Source: an uncultured Bacilli bacterium (GTDB taxonomy: Bacteria; Bacillota_I; Bacilli_A; RF39; UBA660). Taken from it: a DNA stretch of 37,845 bases. The position numbers were made by a program, and so were the translations under genes. Location of the stretch: assembly GCA_944332725.1 (NCBI GenBank), contig CALVKO010000008.1, forward strand, positions 1 to 37,845, written 5' to 3'. Under the pieces are notes generated by a model. It saw only the letters and a list, made by a program, of their open reading frames with translations, made no database searches and had not been told where the DNA came from. How positions within the stretch are numbered: position 1 is the stretch's first letter; each line of letters begins with the position of its first letter. This document shows positions 8,730-24,286 of this stretch, piece by piece.

Positions 8730-10187
8730 ATGGATCAAGAATTAGATAAGATAATTAATCATATTAAAACAATGAATGGCAATAGTACCGACATTAATGT
8801 TCGATATTTTAATATTCACAATCAAAAAGTAGCTTTTATATTTTTAGAAAGTGTCGCTAATGATGATAAAATTAGTAATTTTTTAGGTAAAAGTTTAAGT
8901 ATTAGCGTTAGAAGTAAAAAAAATTTATTTGAAAATTTATTCGATAGTATTAATAATACTATTCCAAATAGTAAAGTTAAGATAATAGATAACTATGACG
9001 ATATTTTTTATCATTTAGCAAGCGGTTTTACTTGTGTTTTTGTCGATGGTTATAATAAAGCAATCACTTTAGAAACTAAAGCTTTATTAGATAGAAGTGT
9101 TACTGAAGCTACTAGTGAACCTGTTTTAAAAGGTCCTAAAGATTGTTTTATTGAAAATATTTTAGCCAATATGGGATTAATTAGGAAAAGAATTAAAGAT
9201 CCCAATCTTTATTTTGAAGAAACAAAAGTTGGAAAAAGGACAAAAACAAAAGTTGTAATTGGTTATATTAAAGATATTGCTGATGAAGAAAAAGTAAATT
9301 TATTAAAGAAAAAGCTAGAAAAAATTAATATTGATGGAATCATCGATTCAAATTATATAAAAGAATTATTAACCGATAATCAAAAATCTTTTTTACCAAG
9401 AGTAATATCTACAGAAAGACCTGATTTAACTGCCATGGGATTATTAGACGGTAAAATAGCTATCATCGTAGAAAACACTCCTTATGTTTTATTATTGCCT
9501 ACTGTATTTGCTGATTTTTTCAAATCACCTGAAGACTATTATACAAAACCATTTAATGCCTCTTTTACAAGAATTTTAAGATATATTGCATTCTTTATTG
9601 CTATTTTGGTCCCAGCTTTTTATATTGCCGTAACAACATTTAATATGGAAATTGTTCCTAGTTCTTTATTAATATCATTTTCAATTCAAAGGGAAAGTGT
9701 TCCCTTTCCCACCATAATAGAAGTTCTAATACTAGTAATTTCTTATGAGATATTAAGAGAAGCCGATACAAGAAAACCACAAATCATGGGCGCATCCATC
9801 AGCATTGTCGGTGCTTTAATTTTAGGTGAAGCAGCTGTTTCTGCCGGCGTTATATCACCAATTGTTGTTATTGTTATTTCTATTTCAGCCGTTTCAGGAA
9901 TGGGTTTCAATGATCCTGATATTACAAATGCAATTAGAATATGGCGAATTTTATTCATGTTGGCAGCATGTTTATTCGGTATTGTTGGTATAGTTATTTT
10001 ATTCATTATCTTTATAACTAAATTAAACAGTATTGAAGTATTAGGTACACCTTATTTAGCGCCTTTATCTCCTTTTAGTTTAAAAGATTTTAAAAATTCT
10101 TTGACAAGATTCCCTCAGCAAAAAATCAAGACAAGACCAACTTATTTTAATAAAAAAAATATTAATAGAATAGGAAGTGACAAATGA
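8730..10187 (+). CDS. Spore germination protein, GerA family (A subunit)
   Basis: A 485-aa A subunit of a nutrient germinant receptor in the spore inner membrane. It has a large N-terminal soluble domain (~1-275) followed by about five membrane helices (~285-440). Family signatures include GPKDCFIENILANMGLIRKR, the block around TERPDLTAMGLLDGKIA, and SPEDYYTKPFNASFTRILRY just before the first membrane segment. The polar C-terminal tail is short. The length is within the family range. It starts with ATG at 8730 after AGGTGA. Its last four bases overlap the C-subunit start (ATGA), so it is the first gene of an A-C-B operon. Confidence 0.93.
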   Translation: MDQELDKIINHIKTMNGNSTDINVRYFNIHNQKVAFIFLESVANDDKISNFLGKSLSISVRSKKNLFENLFDSINNTIPNSKVKIIDNYDDIFYHLASGFTCVFVDGYNKAITLETKALLDRSVTEATSEPVLKGPKDCFIENILANMGLIRKRIKDPNLYFEETKVGKRTKTKVVIGYIKDIADEEKVNLLKKKLEKINIDGIIDSNYIKELLTDNQKSFLPRVISTERPDLTAMGLLDGKIAIIVENTPYVLLLPTVFADFFKSPEDYYTKPFNASFTRILRYIAFFIAILVPAFYIAVTTFNMEIVPSSLLISFSIQRESVPFPTIIEVLILVISYEILREADTRKPQIMGASISIVGALILGEAAVSAGVISPIVVIVISISAVSGMGFNDPDITNAIRIWRILFMLAACLFGIVGIVILFIIFITKLNSIEVLGTPYLAPLSPFSLKDFKNSLTRFPQQKIKTRPTYFNKKNINRIGSDK

Positions 10188-11344
10188 AAAAACTATTAAT
10201 CATTCCATTAATATTCCTATTAACTGGGTGTTGGAATTATCGCGAACTTAATCAATTAGCTATAACAACTGGGATTGCAGTAGATAAAGAAAATGATAAT
10301 TATAAAATAACTATTATGATAGCTAATTCTAAAAAAAGCAGTAGTTCAGATGGTAGTATAACGCCATCAGCAGCTGTTTATGATGGAACAGGTCAGACAA
10401 TTTATGAAGCCTTTAAAGATACATCTTTAAGTGTATCTAAACAAATTTATCTAAGCCATATTGATGTATTAGTATTATCTGAAGAAGTCGCAAAAAATAA
10501 TTTAACTGATGTAATTGATTTTCTATTTCGTTATCCCCAAACAAGAAATAATTTTTATTTAGTTTTAGCAAAGGATAAAAAAGCTAGCGACATCTTAAAA
10601 GTAACTACGCCATTAGAGACATTTCCCTCTCAAAATCTAGCTAAAAATCTTGAAATAACTGATAAATTACAAGGATTTACTTATACAGTCGATTTTACTG
10701 ATTTCACAAAATCACTTGTATCAGAAGGAATAAATCCTATTCTTCCATCAGTAACAGTCATCGGAAATAGTGAAGAAGGAAATAAAGAAGAAAACGTACA
10801 ACAAAATGAACCATCTACTTATTTAAAATTAGACATGTTAGGATTATTTAAAAAAGATAAATTTGTTGCATGGGCTAATCCTAATCAAAGCAAAGGAATC
10901 AATATAATCAATAATAAAATATACATATTAGGAGTTATCATTGATTACCAAAATGAAAAAATAGTAACAGAAATAACCGAAATGAAAACTGATTTTAAAG
11001 TTGAAAATAATAAAGTGAAAATAACTATTGATACAACAGGAGCAATTCAAGAGGTAAATGCTAATGTTGATCTATATAATCTTAAAACTATTGAAGAAAT
11101 TCAAAATTCAGATGTTGAAAAAATTAAAGAATATGTTAATGATGCTATTAATTTAGCCAAAGATAATAAAACAGATATTTTTGGTTTTGGAAACTATGTT
11201 TATAAGAATAATCCTAAAAAATGGAATGAAATAAAAGATAAATGGGACGATGAAATATTCCCTAGTTTAGAAGTAGAAATAGAAGTCAATCTAAAACTTC
11301 AGGCCAAAGGTTCAATAAATAATATCGTCGAGGTGAGAGAATGA
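10184..11344 (+). CDS. Spore germination lipoprotein, GerC family (C subunit)
   Basis: A 386-aa lipoprotein subunit of the germinant receptor. The signal peptide ends in the lipobox LTGC (Cys ~18), followed by the family hallmark WNYRELNQLAITTGIAVD. The rest comprises the three-domain extracellular region, including SHIDVLVLSEEVAK and the conserved C-terminal TDIFGFGNYVYKNNPKKW. It overlaps both neighbours by four bases (ATGA), indicating translational coupling and stoichiometric production with the A and B subunits. Confidence 0.94.
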   Translation: MKKLLIIPLIFLLTGCWNYRELNQLAITTGIAVDKENDNYKITIMIANSKKSSSSDGSITPSAAVYDGTGQTIYEAFKDTSLSVSKQIYLSHIDVLVLSEEVAKNNLTDVIDFLFRYPQTRNNFYLVLAKDKKASDILKVTTPLETFPSQNLAKNLEITDKLQGFTYTVDFTDFTKSLVSEGINPILPSVTVIGNSEEGNKEENVQQNEPSTYLKLDMLGLFKKDKFVAWANPNQSKGINIINNKIYILGVIIDYQNEKIVTEITEMKTDFKVENNKVKITIDTTGAIQEVNANVDLYNLKTIEEIQNSDVEKIKEYVNDAINLAKDNKTDIFGFGNYVYKNNPKKWNEIKDKWDDEIFPSLEVEIEVNLKLQAKGSINNIVEVRE

Positions 11345-12414
11345 AAGTAACTAATTCAGAATATGCTTGTTTATCATCTTTTTTAATAAGATCATTATTT
11401 TTTGGACCAGCTATTTATAGTATCTTACATTTTGCTTTACAAGATGGCTGGATAAGTATCATCGTTTCATTTATTTTAAGCTTTATTCCTTTAATTATTT
11501 ATTATAAGCTACTAAATTGTAATCCTAATGATAATATTGTTAGCTTAAATAACAAATTAGGATTAATAGGAAAAATAATTAATACAATTCTAACAGCTTT
11601 TGTTATTTTTCACGCCAGTCTAATTCTATGGAATTTAACTAACTTCATATATTCACAATTTCTATTCCAAACACCATTAATTGTTATTGCTATTATTATT
11701 TCCTTTGGCATATTTTATATCAGTATTAAAAACCTAACAACTATTGCTAGAACGGGAACTGTTTTCTTTATTATTAGCACTATACTATATTTTATAGCAG
11801 CTTTATCTTTGATTGGCAAATGCGATTTAAATGGGCTTAAACCTATTTTCAACTCAGGTATTATGCCAATTCTAAAGGGAAGTTTTTCTTCTTTAGGACT
11901 TAATATATTTCCTTTATTTATAATTTTAATAATACCGAAAAATAACATCAAAAATAATGACAAAATTATATCATCTTTCTTTAAAGTTTATATTTTCAGA
12001 TATTTGTGCATGCTATCAGTATTAGTAATTTGTGTAGCTATTTTGGGAATAGAATTAACTAACCTTTATCAATATCCGGAATATCACATTTTAAAAACTA
12101 TTAATATTGCTAACTTTTTTCAAAGAGTCGAATCAGTTTTATCAGTTCAGTGGATATTTGATGCTGTCATGTCAATAGCATTATGCCTTTATTATGTTAA
12201 AGAAAGTATAACCAAAACATTTAATTTAAAAAACAAATTTAATTTAATAAATATTATTTGCATTATTAGTATTTTAATTATCGCAAATTATATCTTTACT
12301 AGTAATACGGTAGCAGAAACATTTTATAAAAATATTTATCCTTTTCTAACTTCAATCTTTTTCTTAATTATTCCTTTGATAATATTAATAATAGTTAAAG
12401 TTAAGAAAACTTAA
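11341..12414 (+). CDS. Spore germination permease-like protein, GerB family (B subunit)
   Basis: A 357-aa membrane protein of the APC-superfamily-related GerAB/endospore germination permease family, with about ten predicted transmembrane helices. It is thought to hold the germinant-binding pocket of the receptor. It opens with the polar MKVTNSEYACLSSFLIRS and then hydrophobic helices through the protein. It is the third gene of the A-C-B operon and overlaps the C subunit by ATGA. It ends tail to tail with the DUF368 gene; the operon terminator seems to lie inside that gene's 3' end. Confidence 0.92.
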   Translation: MKVTNSEYACLSSFLIRSLFFGPAIYSILHFALQDGWISIIVSFILSFIPLIIYYKLLNCNPNDNIVSLNNKLGLIGKIINTILTAFVIFHASLILWNLTNFIYSQFLFQTPLIVIAIIISFGIFYISIKNLTTIARTGTVFFIISTILYFIAALSLIGKCDLNGLKPIFNSGIMPILKGSFSSLGLNIFPLFIILIIPKNNIKNNDKIISSFFKVYIFRYLCMLSVLVICVAILGIELTNLYQYPEYHILKTINIANFFQRVESVLSVQWIFDAVMSIALCLYYVKESITKTFNLKNKFNLINIICIISILIIANYIFTSNTVAETFYKNIYPFLTSIFFLIIPLIILIIVKVKKT

Positions 12415-13248: not shown

Positions 13249-14248
13249 ATTCAAAATAATCTATTTTCATGTTTTTTCTTACTAATTTCATTTTATCAAT
13301 AGCATATTTTCTAGCGTTACTAGTACCATCTTTTAATATTTTTTCAACCAAATCCATATTATTTTCATATTCTCTTCTTTTATCTTGAATTGGCTTTAAA
13401 AATTCCATCATTTTATTAATTAATTCTTTTTTACAAGCAACACAACCACGGCTACCATTTTTACATTCACTACAAACAACATCTAAATTATCTTTATTAA
13501 CTAATTTATGATAATAATAAACCATACAAACATCAGGATTAGCTTTATCATCTTTTTTTATTTTGTTAGGGTCAGTTACTGCTGACATAATTTTTTTAGA
13601 AACAGTGTCTAAATCATCAACTAAATATATTGCATTGCCTAAACTTTTTCCCATTTTTTCATTACCATCTAAACCTTTAATTCTCATATTTTTAGTTAAT
13701 AACTGAACCGGCTCTACTAATGTACTACCATATATTGAATTAAATTTACGAACTATTTCACGACATTGTTCTAATAATGGTAATTGATCTTCTCCTACTG
13801 GTACCAGTTGCCCATCAAACATTGTAATATCGGCAGCCTGACTAACAGGATAGCCTAAAAATCCATAGGTAACACTTTCACCATTACCGAATAAATCTTT
13901 TTTTTGTTTGATTTCTGTTTTAACAGTTGGATTACGATATAATCTAGAAATTGTGACTAAATTAGAATAATAAACTGTTGCTTCGGCTATTTCTGGTATC
14001 ATAGATTGAACAAATATAATTGATTTACTAGGATCAATCCCACAAGCCAACAAATCTAAAGTTAGTTCTTTAACGTTTTTTCTAACTTTATCTGGATTAT
14101 TAAAATTATCTGTTAAGGCTTGAACATCAGCTATTTCAATAAAAGTTTTATATTTATCTTGTAACTCAACCCAATTTGATACTGCTCCAAAATAATGACC
14201 CAAATGTAAATTACCTGTTGGTCTAATACCTGTTAATATATTTTTCAT
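13247..14248 (-). CDS. trpS: Tryptophanyl-tRNA synthetase with a cysteine cluster
   Basis: A 333-aa class I synthetase that charges tRNA-Trp. The HIGH motif appears as HLGH (residues 15-18), the KMSKS loop as EKMGKS, and TrpRS landmarks GIRPTGNLHLGHYFGA and VPVGEDQLPLLEQCREI are present. Between the catalytic core and the C-terminus is the pattern C-x20-C-x6-C-x2-C (CSECKNGSRGCVACK at its end). This is very close to the C-x22-C-x6-C-x2-C [4Fe-4S] ligands of the Thermotoga maritima enzyme, so a metal or Fe-S cluster near the anticodon-binding part is likely. The start overlaps the stop of the patatin gene (ATGA). Confidence 0.95.
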   Translation of the reverse strand: MKNILTGIRPTGNLHLGHYFGAVSNWVELQDKYKTFIEIADVQALTDNFNNPDKVRKNVKELTLDLLACGIDPSKSIIFVQSMIPEIAEATVYYSNLVTISRLYRNPTVKTEIKQKKDLFGNGESVTYGFLGYPVSQAADITMFDGQLVPVGEDQLPLLEQCREIVRKFNSIYGSTLVEPVQLLTKNMRIKGLDGNEKMGKSLGNAIYLVDDLDTVSKKIMSAVTDPNKIKKDDKANPDVCMVYYYHKLVNKDNLDVVCSECKNGSRGCVACKKELINKMMEFLKPIQDKRREYENNMDLVEKILKDGTSNARKYAIDKMKLVRKNMKIDYFE

Positions 14249-15405
14249 AAATTACCTCCTACTGCTAATAAATAAATTGCTGTTGTATATTCTTTTGGGA
14301 AAAAAGTAAATAATGGATTTATTTTGTCACATTTTTTTAATTTTAAATATATATATTTAGCAATTACTTCCCTATTTAATACTTTTTTTAATTCGTCTAT
14401 ACTAAATTTATCAAAATTTATATTATCCGCCAATTCTAATTTTATAAATAATTGTTTATTTACTTCATTAGAATTATATATTTTATCCACAGCAATATCA
14501 AATATTTCTAAACTATCTTCAATTATTTTATAAAAATTATCTTGTTTTAATTTTTTAAAATTACCTATATAATCTAATCCATTACATAAATTATTTATTT
14601 TGTTTATGTATTTAAAATATAAATTATCAATTGTTCCCTTCTTAAAAGTATATAAATCACCATCTAATTTATTAAATTTTTTTAAAGTGTCATTATATCC
14701 TAATTTCATCATTCGTTTAGTTACATTAGAATCAAACATTAAAAAGGAATCTAATTTATTATTTGGTTCAATATAAGTTACTTTTATTTTCTCATTACGT
14801 ATTTTTTGTTTAAATCCTACTGCTCTTAAATCAACAGCAATGATTTCTGTTGCTCCTAAATCTAATGCTAAATTAATTGGTAAATTATCGTAATAACCAC
14901 CATCGACTAAAATGTCAGTTCCAATTTTAGTAGGCTTAAAAAATGGAAAACAAGTAGCAGAAGCCAAAATATATTTTTTTAATTTATCTGGTCTAGTATT
15001 TTTTTTAGTAGAATATATAACTTTTCTAGTTGATAGATTAAAAGAAACAACTCCAAAATTAATCTTTGAATTATATAATTTATTTGGTTTATAAAGATTA
15101 TTTATTATTTGTTCTATTTTATTAGTGTCTATTCCACCATCAAAAATTTTATTTAAATATTCCAAGTACATTTCTTTAGAACTTGTTATTTTTTTAAAAT
15201 TATCATATAAAATATCATAATTAATATTCTTCCATAGACGAATGCATTTATAAAACTCATTTTGGACCATCATCATACCATTTAAGGCACCTATAGAAGT
15301 GCCTGTTACAATATCATATTTTATATGCATTTTTCGTAGTGCTTTCCAAACACCTACTTCATAGGCGCCTTTAGCGCCTCCTCCAGATAAAACAACTGCT
15401 AGCAT
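14245..15405 (-). CDS. Patatin-like phospholipase (RssA/YchK type)
   Basis: A 386-aa patatin-family serine acyl hydrolase. The oxyanion hole is GGGAKG at residues ~8-13, the nucleophile Ser lies in GTSIG (~40), and the catalytic Asp in VDGGYYDNLP (~165). These form the Ser-Asp dyad of the family. The first ~200 residues are the catalytic domain; the AT-rich C-terminal ~180 residues are of unknown function and end in TTAIYLLAVGG. No signal peptide is present, so it is cytoplasmic or membrane-peripheral, acting on lipids. It lies between an anchored protein and trpS with a 13-base gap and an ATGA overlap, i.e. one operon. Confidence 0.88.
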   Translation of the reverse strand: MLAVVLSGGGAKGAYEVGVWKALRKMHIKYDIVTGTSIGALNGMMMVQNEFYKCIRLWKNINYDILYDNFKKITSSKEMYLEYLNKIFDGGIDTNKIEQIINNLYKPNKLYNSKINFGVVSFNLSTRKVIYSTKKNTRPDKLKKYILASATCFPFFKPTKIGTDILVDGGYYDNLPINLALDLGATEIIAVDLRAVGFKQKIRNEKIKVTYIEPNNKLDSFLMFDSNVTKRMMKLGYNDTLKKFNKLDGDLYTFKKGTIDNLYFKYINKINNLCNGLDYIGNFKKLKQDNFYKIIEDSLEIFDIAVDKIYNSNEVNKQLFIKLELADNINFDKFSIDELKKVLNREVIAKYIYLKLKKCDKINPLFTFFPKEYTTAIYLLAVGGNL

Positions 15406-16775: not shown

Positions 16776-16982
16776 ATGTGTAATAATGAAAATGAATCTT
16801 GCAAATGCATAGCTGAAATATTAACTGTTATATGTATTTTACAACAAAACGCAAATTGTTCTGATTCTTGTTTAGATACATGTGATCGTGGATTTTTAGG
16901 TTGTGGCACAACTACTTATACTTGTAATACTAGACCAATAATGTTATATACTTGTTGTGGTAATGGAACACCTTGGGATTGA
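16776..16982 (+). CDS. Spore coat protein CotY/CotZ-like, 5' part (gene interrupted)
   Basis: The N-terminal portion of a cysteine-rich CotY/CotZ-family outer coat/crust protein. It starts at ATG 16776 (MCNNENESCKCIAEIL), 5 bases after the strong ribosome-binding site AAAGGGTGG. An in-frame GTG at 16767 lies inside that site and is rejected. The family motif region RPIMLYTCCGNGTPW is followed by a single foreign codon and TGA at 16980. Residues 1-67, through Trp (TGG 16974-16976), belong to the gene; Asp68 and the stop come from the inserted element. The rest of the protein resumes at 24038. Joined at TGG, the product is 148 aa with Cys-rich motifs throughout, the same length as B. subtilis CotZ. 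As it stands, only a truncated 68-aa peptide could be made. Confidence 0.85.
   Translation: MCNNENESCKCIAEILTVICILQQNANCSDSCLDTCDRGFLGCGTTTYTCNTRPIMLYTCCGNGTPWD
16974..16976 (+). repeat. Left attachment core (attL crossover)
   Basis: TGG shared with 24038-24040, in the same phase of the coat reading frame. Large serine recombinases exchange at a 2-bp core with only a few bases of identity between sites, so a 3-bp match is normal. Left of it is coat sequence; right of it (GATTGACG) is element sequence. Confidence 0.7.
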
Positions 16983-17030
16983 CGTTAAAGTGATAAATTA
17001 TAATTAAAAGATAACATAAATATTGACACT

Positions 17031-17057
17031 AAACGGCATATATAAGTCGTTTTTTTA
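17031..17057 (+). terminator. Terminator just inside the left end of the element
   Basis: The stem AAACGGC/GTCGTTT (17031-17037 with 17046-17052, one G-U pair) is followed by a run of T. It would stop transcripts started at the coat promoter before they enter the cargo while the element is in place. Confidence 0.7.
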
Positions 17058-17073
17058 TTATTTAATAATCAAA

Positions 17074-17088
17074 TACGCCACATCGCCA
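17074..17088 (+). repeat. Inverted repeat, left copy
   Basis: TACGCCACATCGCCA is the exact reverse complement of 22104-22118. Similarity continues imperfectly on one side: GGCCTAC at about 17101-17107 corresponds to GTAGCC at 22090-22095. The GC-rich core stands out in this AT-rich DNA. The two copies bracket the cargo genes but not the recombinase. Confidence 0.75.
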
Positions 17089-17339
17089 ACTATAAATAAT
17101 GGCCTACCTTTATAAATTTAAGAAAATTTTCATTTTTTTAAAAAGTACTTATAAAAAATTATTTAAATGTGATAAATAGTAATATATTTTTTATTATAAA
17201 TAAATAAGTAGAAATTTTAACTCTAATAATAAACATTAGGGGTATTTTACAATCAATAAAAATAAATAATAATTGATATTAAATATTGCTAATAAACGTT
17301 GTTTAAAGTCTTAAAAAATTACAAATTATTGGAAATATA

Positions 17340-17348
17340 TGGTAAAAT
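17340..17348 (+). promoter_or_regulatory. Extended -10 promoter of the NTPase gene
   Basis: TGG-TAAAAT (TAAAAT at 17343-17348) lies 45 bases before the ATG. The -35 region is weak. An AAAGGG ribosome-binding site lies unusually far (about 14 bases) from the start codon. Confidence 0.4.
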
Positions 17349-17393
17349 AAGGTTGTATTAATTAATTTTTTTCAAAGGGATAGTGATTAAACA

Positions 17394-20228
17394 ATGATTA
17401 AAAAACACAATAAAGATAAAAGCAGTGAAAATAATAATATATTTTTAGAAACACCTATTGATAAAATTGAAGATGATAAGTTTGGATGTGTATGCTATTC
17501 CAAACAAATCGTTTCTGCTTTTGAAAAAGGTGCTAAATTTATAGCAATTGATGGCGAATATGGTGTAGGGAAATCAAGTATATTAAATTTAACAAAGAAA
17601 CTAATTGAAGACAAAAATAAAAATAAAATATTTAATCATTTTAGACAAAAAAAAGATTATTTTGTAAATATAAATTTTTTAAATATTAATGACGTTTCCT
17701 CTAAAGAATCGGACAAGATAAACAATTATCATAGATATTTTGTAAATCAAACAGCTAATGATTTATATAGAAATCCATATGACATTGAAAAACTTTTTTA
17801 TCATAATTTTATTTCATATTCAACGATTTCATTAAAAAATAATAATTTATTTAAAAAAATTATTGATAAAGCATTATTAATATTATTGGCTTTTATATCA
17901 CTTTATTTAATCTATTCAGGCTTCTTTAAAAATTTCGAATTACTAAAGGGCTTATACAACTTTTCTACAGAAATAATGCCATATATCTTATTTATAGTAT
18001 TTATCTTATTAATTTTATATGGATATGGTTTTTATAAGCCTGATAAGTCTGAAATAAGTCCTATGCTCGAAGTAGATAAATGTAGGAATAATTTGTGCAA
18101 AATATTATTTAATAAAATTCCTAAAAACAGCAATGTTTATTTTATATTAGATGACTTAGATAGATTAGAAAATAAATTACAATTGCAAATCATTTCATTG
18201 TTATATAATGAATATTTTCCTTTAGATAAAATCATTAAAGATATAAATTTAAAATTTATTTTTATGATTAATATAAGTGAATTGAATAAATCAAACAAAT
18301 TAAATAATACTAACAATATTAACGTAAATAAATTATTTGACTATATCGTAAATATATCTAATAACCAAATCACAATTTTAAGAAATTATTTAATTGAAAA
18401 CATAAAAAATAATACTATATTAAGAACCATATTTGATATTCCACAAAAAGATTATATAATAGGTTTGATTTTAAACAACTACAATAGTATAAGAAAAATT
18501 AAACATTTTCTCAATAGAGTTATTACAAAATATATTTATTTAACCGATAAAAATTATAAAGATTTAAATAATGCTCAATTAATATGCATATGTATATTAA
18601 TTAATTTAACAGATACTGAAACATTAAATAATAATATAAATAATATAATACATAATTATTCACCAGAAAAAAATGATGAAGGCAACAACATATCAAATAT
18701 TATAAAAGAGTTATATGAAAGAAACCTAATTGATAATAATTATTATGTTTATTTGTATAATTTTATAGACATAGATGATTTATTAAATAATGATGAACAA
18801 TTTATATATAATATATTAAATAATTTATCAAAATTAAAAGAAGATAATTTGATTAAAATGTATGAAATATTAGATAGAGAAAATGTTTCATTTTCAAAAA
18901 TATATAATGAGATATATAAATATATTCCCAATAATTCAAAAATACTATTACTAGGAAATAAAACATTTAATAGTTTTATGGAATCAAATTATCAAATTGA
19001 TTATGAATTATTTAAAAATTTATATAGAAATCCTTTTATTTATTTTTGTTATGAATTTTTAAATAATAAATATGGTTATCTTATGGATGATGAAATTGAA
19101 TTGTTAGAAAAATATTTTGAAAATTTTAAAGAACAATCTTCTATAGTTGGCAATAAAGAAAAAGATAAATTTTTAAATGAATTAAACATTTTTATAAAAA
19201 ACATGAAATACAATATTAAATTTTTTGATTTTCAAGAATATTTTAATTGGTTGGAACTTGATAAAAATTTATTTACTTTAATTTATAATCAAAAAGAAAT
19301 AAAAGTATCAGTTATATATGAAATGATTTTAAATAAAAACCTATCTTGGAATAATATTAAAGATTTTATTAATGAATCAATAATAAATGATATGTTAAAT
19401 ATCGAAGATGATAAGTTTAGACTACAAATAGAAGAAAGTTATTTGAAATGGAGCAAATCATTTGATTTTATGATTCAAATAATCTATAAAGAAAAAAGAA
19501 TTATTAGCGATATTGAAGAAATTTTTACAAAATTAAATCAATTTGAAGACAAAAAAATAGATTTAGAAACACTAAAAACAATTATAAATAAATATGGCTA
19601 TTTAAAAATATTTGACAAATATTTAATTAATAACTTAAAAGAAAAAGAAAAAGATACAATCTGTTACATTAATGAAAATAAATTTGATATTTCTGAAAAT
19701 ATAATAATTAAAATAAATGAATTAGAATACAAATACAAATTTAAAGAACACTATAATAATTTATTTTTAAAATACAAATATTATAAACTATATATATATT
19801 CAAGAGCAATAAAAGATATAACATTCGACATTAATTTAAAATTAAAATCAAACGAAAAATATATACACTCTTTATTGGAAATTTTTGAATCATTAAATAC
19901 TGATTGGAAGGACTACAATTTTACTGACAATTTTAAATCTTTAATAATTAAAGAAATAAATATAGATACAATAAACTTAACTGATAAAGATTTTTGGAAA
20001 ATATTAAAGTTAATTCCACAAATAAATAATCATAATGAATCATTTAAATTTTTCAATAGAATTAGAAATTTAAATTTATTAAATAAGTTTTGCTCATATT
20101 GTTCGCGAAATTGTAATGATAAAGATTTCATAAATAATTTGAATTTATTTGTTTCAGAATTTGGCACAACAGGAAATAAAATTGTAATTACAAAATTAAA
20201 AAATAAAATCGAAGAAAAGCAAAAATAG
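17394..20228 (+). CDS. YobI/KAP-like membrane-spanning P-loop NTPase
   Basis: A 944-aa protein. Walker A GEYGVGKSS is at residues 54-62. Two adjacent transmembrane segments lie at ~160-176 and ~195-213. Walker B with following Arg, ILDDLDRLEN, is at 251-260. A further ~680 residues are charged, helical and repeat-rich. An NTPase core interrupted by two membrane helices is the layout of KAP/YobI-type P-loop ATPases, which sit on the inner membrane face and are repeatedly found in mobile elements and implicated in phage defence. That role is by family and context, not shown here. The coding DNA is even more A+T- and Asn/Ile/Lys-rich than the flanking housekeeping genes, consistent with acquisition. 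It is monocistronic, ending in a terminator at 20221-20252. Confidence 0.75.
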   Translation: MIKKHNKDKSSENNNIFLETPIDKIEDDKFGCVCYSKQIVSAFEKGAKFIAIDGEYGVGKSSILNLTKKLIEDKNKNKIFNHFRQKKDYFVNINFLNINDVSSKESDKINNYHRYFVNQTANDLYRNPYDIEKLFYHNFISYSTISLKNNNLFKKIIDKALLILLAFISLYLIYSGFFKNFELLKGLYNFSTEIMPYILFIVFILLILYGYGFYKPDKSEISPMLEVDKCRNNLCKILFNKIPKNSNVYFILDDLDRLENKLQLQIISLLYNEYFPLDKIIKDINLKFIFMINISELNKSNKLNNTNNINVNKLFDYIVNISNNQITILRNYLIENIKNNTILRTIFDIPQKDYIIGLILNNYNSIRKIKHFLNRVITKYIYLTDKNYKDLNNAQLICICILINLTDTETLNNNINNIIHNYSPEKNDEGNNISNIIKELYERNLIDNNYYVYLYNFIDIDDLLNNDEQFIYNILNNLSKLKEDNLIKMYEILDRENVSFSKIYNEIYKYIPNNSKILLLGNKTFNSFMESNYQIDYELFKNLYRNPFIYFCYEFLNNKYGYLMDDEIELLEKYFENFKEQSSIVGNKEKDKFLNELNIFIKNMKYNIKFFDFQEYFNWLELDKNLFTLIYNQKEIKVSVIYEMILNKNLSWNNIKDFINESIINDMLNIEDDKFRLQIEESYLKWSKSFDFMIQIIYKEKRIISDIEEIFTKLNQFEDKKIDLETLKTIINKYGYLKIFDKYLINNLKEKEKDTICYINENKFDISENIIIKINELEYKYKFKEHYNNLFLKYKYYKLYIYSRAIKDITFDINLKLKSNEKYIHSLLEIFESLNTDWKDYNFTDNFKSLIIKEINIDTINLTDKDFWKILKLIPQINNHNESFKFFNRIRNLNLLNKFCSYCSRNCNDKDFINNLNLFVSEFGTTGNKIVITKLKNKIEEKQK

Positions 20229-20252
20229 CATTAAAATTATGCTATTTTTTTT
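20221..20252 (+). terminator. Terminator of the YobI-like gene
   Basis: A stem of at least 9 bp around AAATAGCAT/ATGCTATTT (20223-20231 with 20239-20247) is followed by T residues. It overlaps the stop codon. Confidence 0.85.
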
Positions 20253-20309
20253 GCTATGATAGTATTATAAAATCAAATATATAAATATACTAGTAGATTA
20301 AGTTTAAAA

Positions 20310-20555
20310 TTAATTTACCTTAAAAAATTCAGCAATATCAATTTTTAAGGCTTCTGAAATTCTTCCAAGTACTGCAATGGTTAAATGTTTATTACGTTTT
20401 TCATTTTCAATATCACATATATATTCTCTTGACATTTCTGTCATGTCTGCTAAATCTTGTTGTGTCAAATTTCTTTCTAATCTAAATTTTTTTATGTTTT
20501 TTCTAATTATCGAATAATAATATTCATTATCATGAATATATGCTTTTTCCTTCAT
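20310..20555 (-). CDS. XRE-family HTH transcriptional regulator
   Basis: An 81-aa Cro/C1-type repressor-like protein. The helix-turn-helix spans about residues 32-56: LTQQDLADMTEMSREYICDI followed by ENEKRN. This is a standard DNA-binding domain with no extra effector domain. It starts with ATG at 20555 behind GGTGAA. It is divergently arranged from the small membrane-protein gene with a palindrome (20608-20618) between them. It is the likely master switch for element genes, analogous to repressors of phages and skin-like islands. Confidence 0.88.
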   Translation of the reverse strand: MKEKAYIHDNEYYYSIIRKNIKKFRLERNLTQQDLADMTEMSREYICDIENEKRNKHLTIAVLGRISEALKIDIAEFFKVN

Positions 20556-20607
20556 CTATTTCACCAACCTATAATTAGTATGTTATTTTTTTTCAAAAAT
20601 ATATATA

Positions 20608-20634
20608 GGCTAATAGCCACATTTGTGATATAAT
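20608..20634 (+). promoter_or_regulatory. Promoter with operator-like palindrome in the XRE intergenic region
   Basis: Extended -10 TGA-TATAAT (TATAAT 20629-20634) lies before the 73-aa gene. The perfect palindrome GGCTA-A-TAGCC (20608-20618) occupies its -35 zone, the usual place for repressor binding. The divergent XRE gene begins about 50 bases away, so the site could also control it. Confidence 0.5.
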
Positions 20635-20655
20635 AAATTATGAAAGGAGTTAAAT

Positions 20656-20877
20656 ATGGGAAAGCCAAAAAAAAATAATGAATTTAAATGGTATCATTGG
20701 TTTGGAATAGGCCTACTTTTTCTTATGATTTATATTGGAATATCTGAAGGAAACGAAGAAACAGTTGAAGACCAAATTGACAGATTAAATCGTGAAAGTT
20801 GCAGTTCACAAACAAACACTTTTTACAAATGCAGTTGGAGTTTTTGGGAAGATAGATGCGTATGTAAAGAAAGATAA
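20656..20877 (+). CDS. Small single-pass membrane protein with Cys-rich tail
   Basis: A 73-aa protein. It has a basic N-terminus (MGKPKKNNEFKWYHW), one transmembrane helix (residues ~16-31), then an acidic segment and a tail with four Cys (SCSSQTNTFYKCSW, EDRCVCKER). The latter is probably extracytoplasmic and disulphide-bonded. The ribosome-binding site is AAAGGAG, 7 bases before the ATG. Its own promoter and terminator flank it. No family is recognised; an accessory, immunity or exclusion function is conceivable but unsupported. Confidence 0.6.
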   Translation: MGKPKKNNEFKWYHWFGIGLLFLMIYIGISEGNEETVEDQIDRLNRESCSSQTNTFYKCSWSFWEDRCVCKER

Positions 20878-20885
20878 ACCAATAG

Positions 20886-20910
20886 AAAAGTACATTTTGT
20901 ACTTTTTTTT
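20886..20910 (+). terminator. Terminator after the 73-aa gene
   Basis: The 8-bp stem AAAAGTAC/GTACTTTT (20886-20893 and 20899-20906) is followed by more T residues. Confidence 0.85.
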
Positions 20911-20961
20911 GTATATTTTTTTATAAAATTTGATAATTTTAAAACTTTTTTTATCAAAAAG

Positions 20962-20991
20962 TTGATTATAAACGAAATGGCATGATATAGT
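20962..20991 (+). promoter_or_regulatory. Sigma-A promoter of the RepA-like gene, with downstream palindrome
   Basis: TTGATT (20962-20967), 18 bases, then TATAGT (20986-20991), with a TGn extension at the -10. The transcribed leader contains TTGTCG at about 20993 and the perfect palindrome TTGTCGACAA at 21019-21028, possible binding sites for a regulator or replication protein. A hairpin-like repeat AACTTTTT...AAAAAGTT precedes the -35. Confidence 0.5.
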
Positions 20992-21054
20992 GTTGTCGCT
21001 AGCAAAAAAAAGATTAATTTGTCGACAATTAAAAATTTAAGAAAGGAGAACAAT

Positions 21055-22080
21055 ATGAAAAATTTTAAATTAGAAAGTTTTGATTCAATTAAAGAAGAAG
21101 AAATTGAATGGTTATGGAAGCCATATATTCCACTTGGAAAATTAACAATGTTCGCTGGAGATCCTAGCGTCGGAAAAAGCTTTATAAGTACATTTTTGGC
21201 AAGTACAATATCTACTGGAAGCAAATTTCCGTTTAGTGATGAAATAGTTGAAAGTGGTAATGTTATAATTTTAAATGCTGAAGATGGTAATGCTGATTGT
21301 ATTAAAAAGAGATTACGATTAAGTAATGCTAATTTTGAAAATATCTATACCTTATTAAGTGTAGATAATAAGAAATTTTTCACACTAAAAAATTTATCTG
21401 ATTTAGAGGATATGATTCAAGAAGTTAAGCCAAAACTAATAATTATTGACCCTATTACCTCTTATTATGGAGAAGGAGTTGATACTTTTAAAGATAGTTC
21501 TGTTCGAGCTATACTTGCACCAGTTGTAGAATTAGTTTCTAAATATAAAGTTGCCTTACTAGGAATAATACATTTTAATAAAGGAAATGATAAAGCAATA
21601 TATAAAATGAATGGTAGTATTGCAAATATGGGCTTACCTCGTTCTGTTATTTATGCAGTGCATTCTAATAACAATGATGAAAGATTACTAATTCATATAA
21701 AATCTAGTAATGCAGAATTAGGAGAAAGTATTGCTTATCGTATTACAGATAATGGGATTGAATGGCTTGGAATACGTGGAAAAATTAATGCGGATGAAGT
21801 AATTTCTAATGAAGAATCTAATCAATATGAAATTGCCTGTGATTTTATATTAGATTATTTGAAAGATGGTAAACAGCTCGGAAGCAAACTATTGGAAAAT
21901 GCTTTAGAAAACGGAATATCAAAAAGAACTCTAGAACGTGCTAGAGCTGATTTAAAGAAAAAAAATATTATTGATAATGAAGTTATTAATTCAAAAACTT
22001 ATTGGTATCTTATTGATTCTAAAAATAAAATTAAAAATGAAACTAATTTAGATGATATTAATCCATTTGATGACATTTAA
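21055..22080 (+). CDS. RepA-like AAA-family ATPase/helicase
   Basis: A 341-aa RecA-fold ATPase. Walker A GDPSVGKS is at residues 35-42, Walker B LIIIDP at 128-133, and the C-terminal ~80 residues include a probable winged-helix segment (DGKQLGSKLLENALENGISK). This organisation (AAA_25-type, plasmid RepA/DnaB-like) is common in replication modules of plasmids, phages and integrative elements, so it could drive replication of the excised circle. That is inference. ATG 21055 is preceded by GAAAGGAG at a good distance; an upstream in-frame start at 21019 lies inside the palindrome and is rejected. A long structured gap follows. Confidence 0.78.
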   Translation: MKNFKLESFDSIKEEEIEWLWKPYIPLGKLTMFAGDPSVGKSFISTFLASTISTGSKFPFSDEIVESGNVIILNAEDGNADCIKKRLRLSNANFENIYTLLSVDNKKFFTLKNLSDLEDMIQEVKPKLIIIDPITSYYGEGVDTFKDSSVRAILAPVVELVSKYKVALLGIIHFNKGNDKAIYKMNGSIANMGLPRSVIYAVHSNNNDERLLIHIKSSNAELGESIAYRITDNGIEWLGIRGKINADEVISNEESNQYEIACDFILDYLKDGKQLGSKLLENALENGISKRTLERARADLKKKNIIDNEVINSKTYWYLIDSKNKIKNETNLDDINPFDDI

Positions 22081-22279
22081 AACTATTTAGTAGCCAAATA
22101 AAATGGCGATGTGGCGTAGTAAAAAGACTATGAAAATAATCATAGTCTCTCGCCATTAATATTTATATATTGAATCCAGTTAAATTATACCATAATATAA
22201 ATTTTAAGTCTATATAATCATTATTGTTATGCAAATTATAAATACACACTAATATAATATATAAAGGGGTTGTGATATT
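22081..22279 (+). other. Structured intergenic region after the RepA-like gene
   Basis: Contains the right copy of the inverted repeat (22104-22118). It is nested in a larger potential stem: AATGGCG (22102-22108) pairs with CGCCATT (22151-22157), enclosing the 8-bp hairpin GACTATGA/TCATAGTC (22126-22133 and 22140-22147). The A+T-rich remainder holds TATAAT at 22253-22258 shortly before the 38-aa gene. It could be a terminator-like or regulatory RNA element, or a DNA site for recombination. Confidence 0.55.
22104..22118 (-). repeat. Inverted repeat, right copy
   Basis: TGGCGATGTGGCGTA, the exact reverse complement of 17074-17088, about 5.0 kb away, with weaker matching beyond it (GTAGCC upstream). 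See the left copy. Confidence 0.75.
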
Positions 22280-22396
22280 ATGAATGTTGAAGTTTTTTAT
22301 AACGAAAATGGTAAAACATTTCAAGAGATTATGGAATACTTTTTAATAGAAATGTGTGATACACAAAGTGCCAGTTTTATTGAGAAATATGCCTAA
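22280..22396 (+). CDS. 38-aa protein upstream of the serine recombinase
   Basis: A short frame, MNVEVFYNENGKTFQEIMEY and on to EKYA, preceded by AAAGGGG about 10 bases before the ATG and a TATAAT further up. It lies immediately before the recombinase gene in the same orientation. Mixed hydrophobic and acidic composition suggests a small folded or helical peptide. Small frames beginning in this style are, from memory, common beside Firmicute large serine recombinases. A role as accessory or directionality factor is possible but unproven. Confidence 0.55.
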   Translation: MNVEVFYNENGKTFQEIMEYFLIEMCDTQSASFIEKYA

Positions 22397-22399
22397 ATA

Positions 22400-22408
22400 T
22401 GATATAAT
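22400..22408 (+). promoter_or_regulatory. Extended -10 promoter of the recombinase gene
   Basis: TGA-TATAAT (TATAAT 22403-22408) is 37 bases before the recombinase ATG. This looks like vegetative sigma-A; I found no convincing sigma-E promoter here. Confidence 0.5.
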
Positions 22409-22444
22409 ATTACTGTCAATATGTGTTATCTAGAAGGAGGCAAA

Positions 22445-24007
22445 ATGGTAGATAATAACACATATAAAGTTGGTTTATATATTAGATTATCTAGGGAAGA
22501 TGAAGATAATAATGGAGAAAGTGAAAGTATTACTAATCAAAGAAATTATTTGTTAGAATATGTAAAAAATAATCACTTTATTCTAATTGATGAATATGTT
22601 GATGACGGGTTTACTGGAACAAATTTTGAGAGACCAGCATTTAAAAGAATGATTAAAGATATAGAACTTGGTAAAATAAATTGCGTTATTACTAAAGATA
22701 TGTCAAGACTAGGAAGAGATTATATTGGTATAGGAACCTATATGGAAAAATACTTTCCAGAGCATAATATAAGATATATCGCTGTCAATGATAATATTGA
22801 TTTAAAGGATGGTAAAATAGACAATATGGCTCCTATTAGAGCAGTATTTAATGACTATTATGCTAAAGATATTTCTGACAAAGTTAAAAGCACTATTACT
22901 AATAAAAAAAGAAATGGACAATTTTTAGGTGGAGTCCCACCCTATGGTTATAAGTTTGAAAGCGATGACAATCATTATAAATTAGTAATAGATGAAGAAA
23001 CTAGCATAGTTGTTAAGAGAATGTTTAATATGTTTGTTGGTGGCAAAAGTTTAAAATATATTGCTGATACACTAACAAGTGAGAATATTCCTATTCCTAG
23101 TATCCATAAAAATTTAAATAGAGGCCTTAAGTCTACTGCTTATGGAGTATGGCAAACAAGAACTATTGATGAAATACTTAAAAATCCTACATACATAGGA
23201 AACTTAACGCAAGGTAGAAGAAAGAAAATTAATTATAAAATTAAAAAAGTTGTTAGAGTCCCTAAAGAACAATGGATTGTATGCGAAAACACACATGAGC
23301 CTATTATAGATAAAGAAACATTTGAGCAAGTACAAAATATCTATGAAAAGAATAAAAGCTTAAAGCGTAGCAAAAATCATTTATTATTAAGTGGTTTTAT
23401 ATATTGCAAAGAATGTGGACATAGAATTGGAATTAGTCAAAGCTCTAATAAAAAATTTTATTGTAGTTGTAATTATTACAAAAAATACTCTAAATTAGGC
23501 CTATGTACGCCCCATTCTATACCTTATAATGTGTTAGAAGATATAATACTAAAAGAAATAAGAAAAGAATGCAAAAAGAGTGTTAAAGGCGATAAATTTA
23601 AAGACATAATTAAAAGTAATGACAAAAAAGAAAAAGCCAAAGTCAATTTAATACAATTAATTAAACAAAAAAAGCAAGATATAGAAAATACAAAAAATGC
23701 AATTGATGATTTATATATAGAAAAACTTAAAAAAAATATAAGTAGTGAAAGATATACTAGTGTATATAATAAATTAAATAGCGAATTTAACGTTTTAAAC
23801 GAAGATTTAAAAGCACTAGAAACAGATTATTCATATTTGCTAGGAAACGTTAAAAACAGCCCTAGTATCAATTATACAAAGGCTGTTAACGAATATTTAG
23901 CATTAAAAAATCCTACTAGAGAATTACTTGCGAACTTAATAGACAAAATTGTTATAGATGAAGATAAAAATATACAAATATACTACAAAATAAAAAAAGC
24001 ATGGTAA
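22445..24007 (+). CDS. Large serine site-specific recombinase
   Basis: A 520-aa large serine integrase. Its resolvase catalytic domain (~8-150) has the nucleophile Ser16 in YIRLSRED, catalytic-arginine motif SRLGRDYIGIGTYME (88-102) and VNDNID. The recombinase domain (~165-280) includes GGVPPYGYK and LKNPTYIGNL. The zinc-ribbon DNA-binding domain has CKECG (321-325) with Cys340/342 and Cys354, and a Lys-rich coiled coil (~385-455) precedes the C-terminal tail. All domains are intact, so the enzyme is probably active. ATG 22445 sits behind GAAGGAGG; an upstream in-frame start at 22421 is rejected. It ends 30 bases from the right attachment core, and would catalyse integration and, with a directionality factor, excision of this element. 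Confidence 0.95.
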   Translation: MVDNNTYKVGLYIRLSREDEDNNGESESITNQRNYLLEYVKNNHFILIDEYVDDGFTGTNFERPAFKRMIKDIELGKINCVITKDMSRLGRDYIGIGTYMEKYFPEHNIRYIAVNDNIDLKDGKIDNMAPIRAVFNDYYAKDISDKVKSTITNKKRNGQFLGGVPPYGYKFESDDNHYKLVIDEETSIVVKRMFNMFVGGKSLKYIADTLTSENIPIPSIHKNLNRGLKSTAYGVWQTRTIDEILKNPTYIGNLTQGRRKKINYKIKKVVRVPKEQWIVCENTHEPIIDKETFEQVQNIYEKNKSLKRSKNHLLLSGFIYCKECGHRIGISQSSNKKFYCSCNYYKKYSKLGLCTPHSIPYNVLEDIILKEIRKECKKSVKGDKFKDIIKSNDKKEKAKVNLIQLIKQKKQDIENTKNAIDDLYIEKLKKNISSERYTSVYNKLNSEFNVLNEDLKALETDYSYLLGNVKNSPSINYTKAVNEYLALKNPTRELLANLIDKIVIDEDKNIQIYYKIKKAW

Positions 24008-24037
24008 AGGTATTATTTGTAACTATATGTACAAACG

Positions 24038-24040
24038 TGG
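24038..24040 (+). repeat. Right attachment core (attR crossover)
   Basis: TGG in coat-gene phase, followed by AGT ATG CCA. The bases to its left (TACAAACG) belong to the element. Reading the coat frame leftwards meets a stop at 24020-24022, confirming that the coat sequence begins about here. Confidence 0.7.
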
Positions 24041-24286
24041 AGTATGCCAACTACTAAAGATACAACCGATTGTACTGATACTCCAACACCAGCAAATTGC
24101 TCAAGTGTATTTAGAATTGAAAAAATCGATGGTTGCTGCGCTACATTTAGAGTATTAGCTAGCAATACCGATCCTACTACACAAGCAGCAATTCCATATG
24201 TAGCAACCAATTCTTTCTTTACTATGAACTTAAATTGTGTTTGTAGTTTAAGATGTTTACAAGATACATATGTAGAATGTTTATAA
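24038..24286 (+). CDS. Spore coat protein CotY/CotZ-like, 3' part (gene interrupted)
   Basis: The C-terminal 81 residues after the shared Trp codon of the split coat protein. It contains VFRIEKIDGCCATFRVL, aligning with the B. subtilis CotZ segment FRVERVHGSCATLSLL, and the end FFTMNLNCVCSLRCL, matching VDLDCFCAINCL. The in-frame ATG at 24044 has no properly spaced ribosome-binding site, so this half is unlikely to be translated alone. The reading frame and strand match the 5' half at 16776. A terminator follows directly after the stop, so the intact gene would be monocistronic. Confidence 0.85.
   Translation, partial: WSMPTTKDTTDCTDTPTPANCSSVFRIEKIDGCCATFRVLASNTDPTTQAAIPYVATNSFFTMNLNCVCSLRCLQDTYVECL

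Follow-up and report, generated by a model that had tools for sequence, protein, structure and literature searches.

A predicted membrane-anchored KAP/YobI-type NTPase as probable phage-defence cargo of a mobile element in the spore-coat gene cotZ

The stretch of DNA analysed here (the window, 37,845 nucleotides from an uncultured Bacilli bacterium) encodes a 944-residue KAP/YobI-type P-loop NTPase at 17394..20228 on the plus strand. We propose that this protein is a membrane-anchored NTPase serving in anti-phage (or anti-plasmid) defence, and that its gene is cargo of a serine-recombinase element with its attachment site in the spore-coat gene cotZ; we put the probability of this reading at about two in three. 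Judged by the genes that surround its relatives in other genomes, it is likely a virus-defence gene. The evidence comes from the architecture and family placement of the protein, from the element that carries it, and from the neighbourhoods of its homologues.

Architecture and family placement of the NTPase

The open reading frame begins with ATG, and its translation contains a Walker A motif, GEYGVGKS, at residues 54-61 and a Walker B stretch, VYFILDDLDR, that starts at residue 248 (motif at about 251-257). Between the two motifs lie two hydrophobic segments, at about residues 152-181 and 187-216, each with a 19-residue Kyte-Doolittle mean of about 2.3. This is the KAP P-loop architecture, in which hydrophobic segments are inserted between the Walker motifs, and the motif positions together with the hydropathy values bear out the first-pass annotation, which had described Walker A and B flanking two transmembrane helices. 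Hydrophobic segments ahead of Walker B were found in all of the other KAP/YobI-type homologues examined (11/11) and are absent from PifA. Downstream of Walker B runs a C-terminal tail (about residues 258-944), which the same annotation had called very long and helical. With about 690 residues the tail is indeed very long; its helicity is weakly supported, since the AlphaFold model, made from a two-sequence alignment, has a mean pLDDT of only 34 (pTM 0.21), so that the mainly helical assignment means little.

At 17.7%, the G+C content of the gene is below the 24.6% of the whole window, where just 2.3% of stretches of that length are equally AT-rich. The protein is unusual in composition (Asn 14%, Ile 14%, Lys 12%). 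The gene stands alone: it starts 411 nt beyond the end of the 5' half of cotZ, an AT-rich hairpin and a T run come immediately after its stop codon, and the gene that follows (20310-20555) lies on the opposite strand. Both the monocistronic arrangement and the AT-richness relative to the surroundings had been claimed from the first reading of the sequence, and both hold.

The frame is conserved in a second species (G013) with 92% amino acid identity (dN 0.038, dS 0.111, dN/dS 0.35), and for this reason we do not regard the open reading frame as a chance one. When the two species were compared along the gene, the N-terminal codons 1-300 were found to be conserved (dN 0.012-0.021), and in tail codons 501-800 dN (0.054-0.064) was close to dS (0.068-0.098). 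The C-terminal tail thus appears to evolve faster than the NTPase region, as would be expected of a region in contact with phage proteins that keep changing. The copy in the second species (L054, 10001-12904) also contains about 21-23 extra residues, rich in Asn, Lys, Glu and Ser, after Walker B near residue 303, in what looks like a length-variable linker.

Searched against Pfam and NCBIfam, the window protein gave no match above cut-off, and KAP_NTPase did not appear even at E<=1; the extreme composition of the protein is the probable reason. Its class was instead reached through homologues. Three proteins align with it over nearly the full length (34-43% identity by BLASTP): the closest, in G933, is 43% identical, and those in G053 and G235 are 34-35% identical over their length. 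The G053 and G235 homologues score 33.8 and 43.5 bits, respectively, with Pfam KAP_NTPase (cut-off 20 bits) and 36.4 and 27.3 bits with YobI-ATPase, PF20693 (cut-off 27 bits). They pass both cut-offs, while the window protein passes neither, and at the NTPase locus in G000 and G013 no match to PF20693 was found. On these profile comparisons, the window protein likely belongs to the KAP/YobI class, as the first-pass annotation had proposed.

Comparison with models of known defence proteins narrows the placement. In PADLOC, PifA is the only model that the window protein matches (E 8.2e-8), over residues 14-78 only, and it is also the only one matched by 6/7 of the aligned relatives. A profile comparison (hhalign) with PifA of the F plasmid gave E 9.5e-6 across 55 columns around Walker A; no full-length PifA match was obtained, the similarity being confined to the Walker A region (about 55-65 residues). 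The PADLOC Tmn model was matched at E<=1e-3 by no member of the set formed by the aligned window protein and its close relatives, and strongly by more distant cousins in G074, G946 and G913. Conversely, a profile built from the five closest proteins fails to reach these Tmn-like cousins. Strong YobI members in this family are 941-1204 residues long, and the three that were tested all match the Tmn model. By sequence, the window protein is a member of a distinct KAP/YobI subfamily that lies near Tmn and is not Tmn itself. A sequence search of solved structures returned no match for the window protein, and a profile gave weak, unconvincing matches only; searches of plasmids, phages and viral contigs returned no relative. 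The NTPase occurs in 4/385 genomes of the order; within the genus it is missing from 16/17 other genomes, and almost the whole family lacks it.

The element that splits cotZ

Two Cys-rich open reading frames flank the NTPase region, one ending at 16982 and the other beginning at 24044, and they are the two halves of cotZ. The 5' half (16776..16976, plus strand) comprises 67 codons that match Spore-coat_CotZ (PF10612), after which reading continues into the element as Asp-stop, placing the end of the open reading frame at 16982. The 3' half (24041..24286, plus strand) consists of 81 codons and the stop and also matches Spore-coat_CotZ alone. When the halves are joined in frame at a TGG present at both element ends (16974-16976 and 24038-24040), they give a protein of 148 residues that matches Spore-coat_CotZ with E 6e-14. 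An intact, full-length cotZ, 72-97% identical, is present in 14 other genomes of the genus. The mobile element thus delimited spans 7,064 bp (16977..24040) between cotZ codons 67 and 68; it carries a site-specific recombinase and splits a sporulation gene whose halves join in frame at a short core, as with skin-type elements. Other than the TGG core, the repeats within the element are only AT-rich, chance-like matches.

Beyond the NTPase, the element encodes a Cro/C1-type HTH regulator of 81 residues (20310..20555, minus strand; HTH_3, E 1.6e-11) and, all on the plus strand, a 73-residue protein with an N-terminal hydrophobic stretch and no family match (20656..20877), a 353-residue AAA_25 (RepA/KaiC-like) ATPase (21019..22080; PF13481, E 4.7e-29), a 38-residue open reading frame (22280..22396) and, as its last gene, a large serine recombinase of 528 residues (22421..24007). 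No phage structural genes were recognised among the genes of 16977-24040. The 38-residue frame lies just upstream of the recombinase, and an open reading frame with a similar start (YYNENGK.LQEI) occupies the corresponding position within the G004 element (L052 from 516); it is a possible recombination directionality factor.

The element has moved. G013 carries the same KAP element at the same cotZ site, and the element DNA is 95-100% identical between the two KAP-bearing species, whereas the left flanks are only about 81% identical. In line with this, dS is 0.01-0.11 for the element genes (0.15 in the short HTH gene) compared with about 0.7-0.8 in the flanking genes. Because the element is near-identical and the flanks have diverged by about 19%, it has moved recently and independently of the chromosome. 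The recombinases of the two species are 99.7% identical, and the KAP and AAA_25 genes 95-96%; the element may be a mosaic whose recombinase end was exchanged more recently.

The cargo at this site also varies. A different element, about 2.4 kb long, interrupts cotZ at the corresponding place in G004 (L052, G004:C27, 253-3071). It has a recombinase 50% identical to that of the window and, instead of the KAP gene, a RelB/YafQ toxin-antitoxin pair. The cotZ site is empty in most sister species, occupied by the KAP element in two, and occupied by the toxin-antitoxin element in one. Candidates for a further split cotZ outside the genus were rejected, as the double matches turned out to be intact genes, mostly tandem paralogues. 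The cotZ halves that join in frame, the serine recombinase and the divergence of flanks against element together substantiate the earlier suggestion that an element carries the NTPase gene as cargo, and place this mobile element within a coat gene.

Whether excision accompanies development is a separate matter. It had been suggested that the element carries immunity during vegetative life and leaves during coat formation, and such a putative exit would fit the split cotZ. Excision of skin and of SPbeta from spsM occurs in the mother cell, which dies, and the spore keeps the element. Since skin-type excision is confined to the mother cell, immunity would not leave the lineage. A rival account, which we consider unlikely, holds that the element is a dead insertion that broke cotZ and undergoes no developmental excision; it is compatible with any role of the NTPase. 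It draws on the promoter scans, where no clear sigma-E or sigma-K promoter was seen upstream of the recombinase: the only candidate is one sigma-K-like -10, CATANNNTA at 22191, which has no matching -35 and, with 0.23 expected by chance, is not above chance. A sigma-70 scan (76 found, 78.6 expected) is uninformative in such AT-rich DNA. The state of the genes argues the other way. Neither half of cotZ is disrupted, and both closely resemble the sister alleles (dN 0.039 against dS 0.80 in the 3' half); the recombinase is under strong constraint between the two species (dN/dS 0.06); and two different elements have inserted at the same place in cotZ. Within the library of papers searched, none was found on cotZ together with excision.

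As to the chromosomal surroundings, a complete gerA-type germination operon (GerA, GerAC and permease, 8730-12414) lies about 4.4 kb upstream of cotZ, and this small-genome lineage appears, from its genes, to make spores. A patatin-like phospholipase gene near cotZ (14245-15405) matches the PADLOC phospholipase effectors (E 3.5e-12); since G013 also has this gene next to cotZ, it may be a normal part of the chromosome.

Neighbourhoods of the relatives and rival roles for the NTPase

Close homologues in conserved housekeeping contexts would speak against a defence role. The opposite was observed: relatives of the NTPase are found within defence clusters or are carried by mobile elements. In G933 the relative comes after genes for an Eco47II endonuclease (E 1e-83), a C5 methylase and an ASCH-domain protein, in that order; this locus (L079, 4484-9631), with AAA_25 and tyrosine integrase genes nearby, looks like a mobile restriction island. 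Directly upstream of the G053 relative are two C5 methylases and an NgoFVII-like nuclease, and a methyl-directed restriction enzyme is encoded downstream. An AbiD gene lies three genes downstream of the G235 relative. Among distant relatives, that of G690 is a 1178-residue KAP-like gene that follows HsdM, HsdS and HsdR of a type I cluster (L059, 3559-12696) and overlaps hsdR by 8 nt, making it possibly an accessory gene of type I systems, and that of G248 is preceded by AbiEi and an AAA_14/DUF4143 gene and sits beside an integrase fragment. The Tmn-like cousins are found after an N6-methylase and a GmrSD gene (G913), beside a recombinase (G946) and near an integrase (G074). The G357 locus was uninformative, and those of G400 and G446 run off the ends of their contigs. 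A large protein beside the G357 cousin was considered as a Cas9 and rejected, Pfam identifying it as a Cna_B surface protein. An AAA_14/DUF4143 ATPase is encoded near three KAP relatives (L051 4296-5540 and L078 4789-6003 by family match, L059 13405-14655 by similar sequence) and is a possible functional partner of them.

The adjacency to C5 methylases can be set against their frequency. There are 18 C5 methylases in 25 genomes of the family, and three of these methylases are the KAP neighbours; by our rough estimate a random gene has a chance of less than 1% of lying within 5 kb of one. Because these genes are so sparse, adjacency in 2/4 independent close KAP loci is far above chance. The genome of the window itself has one C5 methylase, on another contig. 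Within the element, unlike in most relatives, no restriction or other recognised defence gene adjoins the NTPase, which would either act by itself, like Tmn, or work for a system located elsewhere in the cell. The neighbourhood evidence, drawn from about 10 loci, is one of association. The defence role put forward in the first-pass annotation is thus favoured by the restriction and Abi neighbourhoods of the relatives and by carriage on a mobile element, and goes as far as such association reaches; our literature search found no published test of the effect of the window protein on phage.

The same loci bear on other roles. The NTPase could protect or maintain the element itself, by excluding related elements or by anchoring or partitioning the excised circle together with the AAA_25 ATPase. 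It shares the element with that ATPase and the HTH regulator, and the G933 relative is likewise near an AAA_25 gene and an integrase. However, the G053 and G690 relatives belong to restriction clusters whose listed or scanned genes include no recognised AAA_25 gene, and the G004 element lives at the same cotZ site without the NTPase, leaving this role rather improbable. We give still less weight to a function in stabilising the element through addiction or suicide, for which the RelB/YafQ pair in G004 and the AbiEi near the G248 relative could be cited: no antitoxin gene adjoins the NTPase, the HTH gene next to it is encoded on the opposite strand and resembles a phage-type repressor, and the NTPase gene is large and under purifying selection. 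Least probable of all is a cellular membrane or sporulation role with an accidental place in the element, suggested by the position inside a coat gene and by the eukaryotic signalling members among KAP proteins, in view of the patchy distribution in the genus, the movement between species and the defence clusters around relatives.

Comparison with known systems and a working model

Among known systems, Tmn is a KAP NTPase with two membrane segments that blocks T2, P1 and other phages (PMC11846954). Like Tmn (PADLOC PDLC02220), the window protein is a P-loop NTPase with two membrane segments, here as read from its sequence, and the Tmn-matching cousins share the order of Walker A, hydrophobic segments, Walker B and long tail; the reach of the Tmn model, which takes in those cousins and misses the window protein and its close relatives, marks a separate subfamily. 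YobI of Bacillus subtilis has the same domain order, and only the homologues, not the window protein, pass the curated PF20693 cut-off. PifA of the F plasmid, known for exclusion of phage T7, resembles the window protein in its KAP-type N-terminus and differs in its length of 741 residues and in lacking hydrophobic segments between the Walker motifs. QatA is the KAP-family NTPase of the qatABCD defence operon (PMC13279940), where it functions together with QatB, QatC and QatD; the window locus lacks such partners.

For the element, the closest precedent is gin, a non-phage element of 28.6 kb with restriction-modification genes in gerE of Bacillus cereus ATCC10987, which has three recombinases, one of them required for rearrangement, and whose excision has been demonstrated and contents vary between strains (PMC5595907). 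Both are serine-recombinase elements that split a sporulation gene; the cotZ element is smaller (7.1 kb), has one recombinase and a different target, and is described here from sequence. The idea of defence cargo in an element within a sporulation gene is clearly not new, gin in gerE being the precedent. Other intervening elements in sporulation genes are skin (sigK), SPbeta (spsM), vfbin (spoVFB) and yin (yabG); in the paper that names these (PMC10747680), cotZ does not appear as an interrupted gene. These four are prophage-like, whereas the cotZ element is without recognised phage structural genes.

We hypothesize that the two segments between the Walker motifs would anchor the N-terminal NTPase to the cytoplasmic side of the membrane, and that the long C-terminal tail would sense a product of infection. 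Phage would be the trigger, nucleotide binding or hydrolysis would switch the protein, and infection would end in an abortive, membrane-linked stop, as an analogy with Tmn and PifA, both KAP proteins, suggests. The element would carry the NTPase gene between species, and its precise excision would restore cotZ in frame, so that the host would not pay for a disrupted coat gene.

A more far-reaching version of this model is tentative, and we hold it to be possible without favouring it. Here the proteins would form a distinct membrane KAP/YobI subfamily acting as partner or guard of restriction systems (Eco47II, NgoFVII and possibly type I), one member of which would have been picked up without its partner by an element for which cotZ is a landing site that can be renewed. 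The element would be kept in growing cells and in the spore and excised only in the dying mother cell, with the coat gene restored, and its cargo, KAP or toxin-antitoxin, could be swapped at no cost to sporulation. The three states of cotZ (empty, KAP element, toxin-antitoxin element) form a natural comparison set with a clean contrast. If the model is right, spore-coat genes of uncultured Bacilli with small genomes would offer exchangeable defence genes a place to insert at low cost, the role of cotZ would parallel that of gerE for gin in B. cereus, and a KAP/YobI subfamily tied to restriction systems would open an easier way to test how KAP defence proteins work.
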